From Patescibacteria group bacterium (GTDB taxonomy: Bacteria > Patescibacteriota > Microgenomatia > UBA1406 > GWC2-37-13): a stretch of 64,000 nt of DNA. The stretch covers positions 146,155 through 210,154 of the forward strand of contig JANWUX010000001.1 of assembly GCA_025057905.1 (NCBI GenBank), read 5' to 3'. Under the pieces are notes generated by a model, which was given only the letters and a program-made list of their open reading frames with translations, was not told the DNA's origin and searched no databases. The position numbers were made by a program, and so were the translations under genes. Below, one piece after another: positions 2,016 through 3,557 of the stretch (within the stretch, counting starts at the first letter, position 1; every line of letters begins with the position of its first letter).

Positions 2016-2744
2016 CTAATGAGTAACTTGAAAAATTTTTTTTATTTCATCGATAGCGCTTTCAAAGATAATTATTTGATGACAATTGAGAATTTGATAG
2101 GTATTAATCATTCTCGCTTCAATAAAGTCAGTCTTTGGAATATTTCTAAGGGAGAGGATAAATTCTTGTGATAATTTAGGAAGGATAAAAAGAACCTTCT
2201 TTCCTTTTAAGCCGAGTTTTTCTAGAAAACGATTGATAATCTTGGTTTTTGGTTTGTCGATTTTTAAAGCTTCATCATCAAGAATGATGATATTTTCATT
2301 TTTAAATTGAAAGGAAAGAGCGCTTATGATTGATTTTTTGTTTTGTTTTTTGTTTATCTTTAGTGAGAAGTCTTTTGGTTTTGGTCCACCAACAACGCCG
2401 CCGCCGACAAAAATTGGTGCTTTAATATCGCCATGCCTGGCTCGACCGGTCCCTTTCTGTCGATAAATTTTTCTAGTTGAGCCGGCGACCTCACCTCGGG
2501 TTTTAGTTGAGGCAGTCCCTTGTCTTTGATTAAAGAGATAAACTCTAACAGTTTGAGCCATAAGCTTTTCATTGATTGTCGTTTTGAATATTTGTGGTGG
2601 CAGATTGATATTTCCTGTTTGATTTCCCTCAAGATCATAGATTAGCAAGTTTGTATCCTCATTCTTTTTTCTGCCTCTGATCGCAATTCTCTTTTTTGGT
2701 GAAATATCGCTTTTATTTTTTTTATCTTTTTCTTGACTAATCAT
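2016..2744 (-). CDS. rplD: 50S ribosomal protein L4 with N-terminal extension
   Basis: uL4, whose internal loop reaches the exit tunnel. The L4 core starts near residue 33 (NLLIYDLEGNQTG). It includes the loop signature RQGTASTKTRGEVAGS, then RQKGTGRARHG, and the C-terminal nucleotide-fold segment. A basic, probably disordered extension of about 30 residues precedes the core, making 242 residues against the usual ~205. The ATG overlaps the end of rplC by 8 bases, which suggests translational coupling. In Escherichia coli L4 controls its own operon through the S10 leader; whether it acts on the structured leader ahead of rplC here cannot be told. Confidence 0.95.
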   Translation of the reverse strand: MISQEKDKKNKSDISPKKRIAIRGRKKNEDTNLLIYDLEGNQTGNINLPPQIFKTTINEKLMAQTVRVYLFNQRQGTASTKTRGEVAGSTRKIYRQKGTGRARHGDIKAPIFVGGGVVGGPKPKDFSLKINKKQNKKSIISALSFQFKNENIIILDDEALKIDKPKTKIINRFLEKLGLKGKKVLFILPKLSQEFILSLRNIPKTDFIEARMINTYQILNCHQIIIFESAIDEIKKIFQVTH

Positions 2745-3432
2745 TTCTCAAATCTGAAACTACTTCTAGCAATCCACCACAAACCCCGGGCACAAATCCT
2801 TTGATCATAAGATGATCATCGCTTACGTCAATCACCTCTAATCCCTTGATAGTGACTCGCTCATTCCCCATCCGACCGGCCATTCTTTTACCTTTGAAGA
2901 TTCTTCCGGGAGTCGTTGTCATTCCAACTGATCCTGGTGCTCGTTCATGTTGTGACTGACCGTGAGTTCTTGGCCCACCAGCAAAACCATACCTCTTAAA
3001 AACACCCTGGAACCCCTTGCCCTTGGAGGTACCTGAAACAACGACTTTTTCGCCTTTCTTGAAAAAAAAATTTGGTTTTAACTTATCACCAATAAAAACC
3101 TTCGTTCCTGAATCGTTAATAATTCCCCTTTTTTCTCCCTCTTCGATTACCTTGAATTTAGCCTCTCTTCCGTTCTTGTCAAGTCTTATTTCCTTCAAAA
3201 AACGAAGGAGAATTTGTATACTAGCTTTTTTTAATTCTCCCTTGATCGGTTTTTTTATTCTTTTCGTTTTTTTTATCCCGAGTTTTACTGAAAAATAGCC
3301 ATTCTTTTCTTTTGTCTTGATGCCAATCAAATAACAATCGTCAGCCTTGATATAAGTCACCGGCACTCTTTCCCCCTTCTGATTAAAAACCTGAGACTGA
3401 CCTTCTTTAATTCCCAGAATAAAGCCGGCCAT
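2737..3432 (-). CDS. rplC: 50S ribosomal protein L3
   Basis: uL3, which reaches into the peptidyl-transferase region. The 231-residue protein opens MAGFILGIKEGQSQVF, equivalent to the family's start. It carries GTSKGKGFQGVFKRYGFAGG, then THGQSQHERAPGSVG and TPGRIFKGKRMAGRMG, all L3 hallmarks. The start codon sits 3 bases after a seven-T tract that closes a GC-rich hairpin, so no Shine-Dalgarno can lie in the usual window. A consensus promoter about 95 bases upstream suggests rplC begins its own transcript with a structured leader. Confidence 0.96.
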   Translation of the reverse strand: MAGFILGIKEGQSQVFNQKGERVPVTYIKADDCYLIGIKTKEKNGYFSVKLGIKKTKRIKKPIKGELKKASIQILLRFLKEIRLDKNGREAKFKVIEEGEKRGIINDSGTKVFIGDKLKPNFFFKKGEKVVVSGTSKGKGFQGVFKRYGFAGGPRTHGQSQHERAPGSVGMTTTPGRIFKGKRMAGRMGNERVTIKGLEVIDVSDDHLMIKGFVPGVCGGLLEVVSDLRND

Positions 3433-3435
3433 TTT

Positions 3436-3480
3436 AAAAAAAGGCCCCAGATTGGGGCGTAGATTGGTCTTCCAATCTGG
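3436..3480 (-). promoter_or_regulatory. Two-hairpin leader ending in a terminator-like stem before rplC
   Basis: On the minus strand a first hairpin pairs AGATTGG with CCAATCT around a 4-base loop (3461-3478). A second pairs GCCCC with GGGGC around AATCT (3444-3458) and is followed by seven T (3436-3442). In addition CCAGATTGG (3472-3480) is complementary to CCAATCTGG (3447-3455), a 9-bp pairing that excludes both hairpins. This is the layout of a transcription attenuator or ribosomal-protein leader. The rplC ATG follows 3 bases later. The pairings are read directly; the regulatory role is inferred. It could instead be a plain terminator for the tuf-rpsJ transcript. Confidence 0.7.
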
Positions 3481-3528
3481 AATAAAAAACTATCTAATTT
3501 TCAATCTTTTTCATTTTTTCAACACTTA

Positions 3529-3557
3529 ATTATACTAAAGTTCTCAGTTTGCGTCAA
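3529..3557 (-). promoter_or_regulatory. Sigma-70 type promoter for rplC
   Basis: Minus strand: -35 TTGACG (3552-3557), 17-base spacer, -10 TATAAT (3529-3534). Expected transcription start is near 3522, giving a leader of about 90 bases that contains a six-codon reading frame (MKKIEN, 3494-3514) and then the paired hairpins. The match to consensus is nearly perfect. Confidence 0.8.

Follow-up and report, generated by a model that had tools for sequence, protein, structure and literature searches.

Known attenuators and the leader before rplC

The matching of ribosomal-protein output to need is known mostly through proteins that bind the mRNA encoding them. In E. coli, the S10 operon is regulated by uL4, partly through termination in the leader (PMC10931766), and in B. 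subtilis an attenuator governs rplJL, with L10(L12)4 as its ligand and a leader peptide located at and after the terminator (PMC4538822). The list of r-leaders compiled by Eckert and Weinberg in 2020 (PMC7247131) has a single rplC-type entry, which is archaeal (Archaeoglobi), and none from Patescibacteria. A search of the open-access literature on Patescibacteria and the Candidate Phyla Radiation turned up no description of a ribosomal leader or other structured RNA.

The attenuator ORF trpL of S. meliloti is leaderless, acts in cis on the operon that follows it, and senses an amino acid by means of repeated codons. The same three properties are found in the polycysteine ORFs of mycobacteria, which PMC13236596 cites. 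In the ilvB1 attenuator of M. tuberculosis, a ribosome at the stop codon masks about 26 nt, the antiterminator included (PMC13236596).

The leader considered here lies upstream of rplC in the window (the whole stretch of DNA that was analysed, 64,000 nucleotides in length). Like the E. coli trp and M. tuberculosis ilvB1 attenuators, it combines a short ORF, an antiterminator just past the stop codon, and a terminator before the first gene, but its target is a ribosomal-protein operon, it has no regulatory codons, its peptide is not conserved, and its ORF probably has a nearly leaderless start. A (nearly) leaderless short ORF would be shared with trpL and the polycysteine ORFs, but their repeated sensing codons are absent. 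As with the E. coli S10 leader, termination would act on an operon that includes rplC and rplD. However, an E. coli-type L4 leader stands before rpsJ, whereas this one precedes rplC, and rpsJ lies upstream of it or is absent from there; it is also only about 90 nt in place of a long structured leader, and it has a conserved mini-ORF. The rplJL leader of B. subtilis offers a third comparison: both attenuate a ribosomal-protein operon by means of antiterminator and terminator, both have a leader peptide, and the copy in the window carries an anti-antiterminator hairpin, but here the ORF precedes the switch. A scan against Rfam 15 gave no family at gathering score, only chance matches at the level of E-values. 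What we class as new is the probable deployment of a translated-leader attenuator on a ribosomal-protein operon. The setting is a lineage of ultra-small, uncultured bacteria with minimal genomes and no Shine-Dalgarno (SD) signal at gene starts. There the signal may be the ribosome itself, as is suggested by a leader whose translated frame and stop position are the conserved part.

The leader in the window and its gene starts

The minus strand carries, in order (genes named through NCBIfam), tuf (EF-Tu), rpsJ (S10), the leader, rplC (L3), rplD (L4), rplW (L23), rplB (L2), and rplV (L22). The source genome is 783 kb in size, and its relatives include Candidatus Roizmanbacteria (L031), by which we take it to belong to the Microgenomates group of Patescibacteria. 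The gene rpsS does not lie between rplB and rplV (window 929-485; G000:C2:143423-143665), unlike in the usual S10 operon, and is located about 3 kb further downstream, beyond the window.

All parts of the leader are on the minus strand. The sigma-70-like promoter TTGACG-N17-TATAAT (3529-3557, with the -35 element at 3557-3552, a 17-nt spacer, and the -10 element at 3534-3529) scores 11/12 and is the best promoter-like site among the 6 kb scanned. It is followed by the mini-ORF ATGAAAAAGATTGAAAATTAG (3494-3514; MKKIEN, 21 nt with its stop), a homologue, by position, of the mini-ORFs that relatives carry, which are mostly 30-78 nt. The antiterminator strand A, CCAGATTGG (3472-3480), is recognised both in the sequence and in the alignment of relatives, where it reads CCRGATTGG. 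According to sequence and folding, it would be sequestered by a local 7-bp hairpin, AGATTGG-AAGA-CCAATCT (3461-3478, arms at 3478-3472 and 3467-3461). Next comes the intrinsic terminator hairpin GCCCC-AATCT-GGGGC (3444-3458), evident from the sequence and from covariation in relatives, then a single C and a tract of seven T's (3436-3442). The terminator loop with part of both arms makes up the antiterminator strand B, CCAATCTGG (3447-3455), picked out by its conserved loop. Strand A (3480-3472) and strand B (3455-3447) can form 9 bp, a pairing incompatible with both the 7-bp hairpin and the terminator. The first gene under the proposed control, rplC (2737-3432; TIGR03625 etc., with rplD, rplW, rplB, and rplV after it), has its ATG at 3432, 3 nt past the end of the T tract. 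A preliminary description of this DNA had listed promoter, six-codon ORF, 7-bp hairpin, terminator, and competing 9-bp pairing, and each is present where it had been placed. Taken alone the fold is unremarkable, being only mildly better than those of shuffled sequences (z -1.83; 11/200).

The same description held that a ribosome site cannot fit after the T tract without rearrangement of the RNA, an argument borne out neither by gene starts in the source genome nor by relatives, in which the distance from terminator to ATG varies widely. In the 727 ORF-called genes of the source genome, starts carry fewer SD-like sequences than the background, and -10 hexamers are most frequent at 6-9 nt upstream of the start (22-28 per position, vs about 9 further out). 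That excess of -10 boxes just before starts implies that leaderless genes are common, and with SD signals few, a T tract close to an ATG is no argument for rearrangement. The anti-SD of the 16S rRNA is nevertheless intact, retaining GGATCACCTCCTTT. When the whole source genome was scanned for a promoter, a nearby ATG, a short ORF, a terminator, and a gene start in succession, the rplC leader was the sole match.

Conservation of the leader among relatives

Some 125 genomes of the class were compared in the region upstream of rplC. Comparison of these sequences demonstrates a conserved architecture in which the frame and stop of the ORF are selected, the terminator covaries, and the whole is unique to rplC. 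Families f1-f3, which make up the window's order, share one order of elements: TTGAC-N17-TATAAT, ATG, a short hairpin, CCRGATTGG, GCCCCAATCTGGGGC with a T tract, and rplC. Nearly all relatives have the promoter. A covariance model built from the leader's last part finds a single match per genome, always adjoining rplC, in 29 of the 32 genomes of the order that were sampled, and also matches three genomes of two nearby families; the window's own match has an E-value of 2.5e-7. An attenuator with its own promoter, as the preliminary description had it, is thus conserved before rplC in relatives, while the regulatory switch itself is what we infer from it. Its placement inside the operon describes the window, where the leader lies between rpsJ and rplC, but not every relative: rpsJ is missing upstream in at least about 20 of 56 leaders (by a regex check that overlooks a few rpsJ genes). 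Since so many genomes have the leader without an upstream rpsJ, the leader belongs to rplC.

Not every part is kept everywhere. Several relatives have no antiterminator; one (L026) has no ORF, and L168-L170 have no trace of the switch as a whole. In a clade of five (L027, L030, L141, L142, and L147), strand A and the terminator are gone, a T run follows a hairpin within the ORF, and the ORF, 105-126 nt long, crosses the start of rplC out of frame, all of which suggests a leader that has been rewired.

The terminator stem covaries in relatives, with 28 cells showing double changes, a number reached by none of 500 shuffles. The columns of the strand A core, GATTG, are at least 90% conserved in the aligned leaders, and the terminator loop, AATCT, is 90-100% conserved. 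The loop of an ordinary terminator is free to vary, so an invariant one is what would be expected if the loop doubles as strand B. The two strands pair in 93% of cells, through invariance and G-U changes, but compensatory changes in the antiterminator do not rise above those in shuffles across the order, nor are they significant within family f25. The check for covariation called for at the outset hence gives a divided answer: both alternative pairings recur in relatives and the terminator stem covaries, but the antiterminator has no significant compensatory change.

The mini-ORF had at first been treated as a minor feature, and here the comparison alters the picture most: the conserved core of the leader is the ORF's reading frame together with the place of its stop. 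In 34 of the 36 leaders that constitute a non-redundant set for the order (none sharing more than 70% identity with another), the stop codon falls 4-18 nt (median 9) before the GATT of strand A; with every leader counted, the figure is 51 of 54. Only 6 and 7 of the 36 have a stop in that range in frames +1 and +2, and in 1000 dinucleotide shuffles the number of stops in range averages 5.6 and never exceeds 14. At the other end, 50 of the 54 leaders have their first ATG 7-10 nt past the -10 box. This is not one conserved sequence, as can be seen from the varied lengths of the ORFs (21-78 nt in the 36 leaders) and their mixed stop codons (TAA 18, TAG 13, TGA 5). Within genus g7, ORFs of 33, 54, 57, and 57 nt share one end point. 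Family f25, with other RNA sequences, has the same stop spacing in 11 of 13 leaders (vs 2 and 4 for the other frames). No residue is common to all 36 leader peptides, and the peptide sequences are unrelated across the order. On the strength of these alignments, the frame and stop position of the mini-ORF are under selection and the peptide sequence is not conserved, a pattern that would make the translating ribosome the effector.

Possible control by translation of the leader

A translated-leader transcription attenuator probably controls the rplC operon (L3-L4-L23-L2-L22), with start site, switching, sign of control, and signal inferred as follows. The RNA would begin at the AUG of the mini-ORF or a few nt before it, so that the ORF would be read with no SD site. 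If no ribosome were on the mini-ORF, strand A would pair with strand B as B leaves RNA polymerase, blocking the terminator and allowing transcription of rplC-rplD-rplW-rplB-rplV. A ribosome translating the mini-ORF would reach the stop codon and cover strand A, whereupon the GCCCC/GGGGC terminator would form and the operon would be turned down. Masking of this kind has been published for the ilvB1 attenuator of M. tuberculosis (PMC13236596). The signal would be the ease with which ribosomes start or finish on the leader, as proposed because frame and stop position are conserved and the peptide is not, and translation capacity would in this way feed back on the synthesis of ribosomal proteins. 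A broader proposition is that the leaderless mini-ORF senses ribosome supply independently of its peptide, translation alone sufficing to close the operon, and does so in much of the Microgenomates class; this we advance tentatively, at slightly less than even chances. If no codon is sensed, then ribosome supply is the natural signal.

The selected short ORF and the conserved terminator before the first gene are those of a translated-leader attenuator. That the antiterminator beside the ORF stop excludes the terminator is indicated by the frequency of A:B pairing and by spacing, with covariation no greater than in shuffles. At equilibrium, folding favours the full terminator over the antiterminator in most leaders, so a switch must be kinetic, and only the folding of growing transcripts is informative about it. 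In a model of such folding, A:B forms first, with a mean probability of 0.94 in the free RNA, falling to 0.46 when the model places a ribosome on the stop codon (compared at equal RNA length, 12 nt into the terminator). Duplex energies after swapping strands across families were set aside as too noisy, own pairs being better in f1-3, f25, f4, f18, and f22.

The leader might instead be autogenous, with L4 (in the manner of the E. coli S10 operon) or L3 binding it, perhaps at the hairpin of the mini-ORF, and favouring termination; L3 or L4 as ligand was an idea of the preliminary description. This we consider unlikely, even given the precedent of uL4, which acts partly through leader termination in E. 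coli (PMC10931766). The region encoding the ORF does fold better than shuffles (mean z -1.45, with 23 of 34 below -1), and a site for a protein might well show the near invariance seen in strand A and the terminator loop. However, neither the hairpin nor its loop sequence is constant within the order, Rfam offers no matching r-leader, and a binding protein leaves the conserved frame and stop position of the ORF unexplained. The hairpin in the ORF-encoding region may be a pause signal.

Considerably less probable is an attenuator that responds to stalling at given codons or to a nascent peptide, as in the trp, ilv, and erm leaders. The general layout of ORF, antiterminator, and terminator is the same, and Phe occurs in 29 of the 36 peptides vs 18.5 expected, but that excess can stem from the U-rich arm of the hairpin. 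No amino acid is common to the 36 peptides, whose sequences are unrelated, and a ribosomal-protein operon would be an odd target. Regulatory codons for a sensed amino acid were sought in the 36 peptides and not found, and amino-acid sensing was rejected for want of common codons. Slightly more improbable still is plain insulation, in which a constitutive, non-switching terminator would stop the transcripts of tuf-rpsJ and cause some attenuation of rplC. The terminator is strong and wins at equilibrium, and several relatives have lost the antiterminator, both of which speak for this reading. The promoter, however, lies upstream of the terminator, obliging rplC transcripts to cross it; the leader remains with rplC where rpsJ is absent upstream; and the conservation of strand A, the loop, and the ORF stop position would have no explanation.

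The copy in the window is not typical of the translated-leader attenuator proposed here. Its AUG comes 14 nt after the -10 box, and its six-codon ORF stops 16 nt before GATT. The second copy of CCAATCT, and with it the local hairpin on strand A, is found in the window genome and in none of the other aligned leaders. In the folding model this extra hairpin holds strand A with or without a ribosome, and modelled masking has no effect on A:B. The window copy is a divergent member and looks tilted towards termination.

Other leaders before rplC

In other families of the class, rplC is preceded by leaders of different kinds, many with a terminator at the end. Among 53 of these leaders, GGAGGTG, the complement of the anti-SD, occurs in 9 (L183, L189, L192, L209, L222, L228, L229, L231, and L235), vs 0.2 expected, and in none on the opposite strand. 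It serves mostly as ATG-GAG-GTG, the opening of a short ORF. Judged by these sequences, such leaders fit a ribosome that acts as sensor.

Saccharibacteria (L094, L099, L101-L105, L107, and L110) have a distinct conserved rplC leader, AACTTATTACGTAATA...GGTGAATTGGTAAGTC...GCCACC...TTTTAA; six of these loci were scanned against Rfam and none matched. Four members of family f5 (L226, L234, L237, and L238) have in common the motif CAGTAGATCGYGCGTC...GATACGRCGATT...ACTGAGTGA upstream of rplC, likely another structured leader. Finally, families f9 and f42 (L215-L220, L232, and L236) carry GAGATACTTTGGTATACTTA...ACCAAAAGTCTCGGATGAG, mutually complementary, together with a CGACCTCAACCGAGGTCG terminator.
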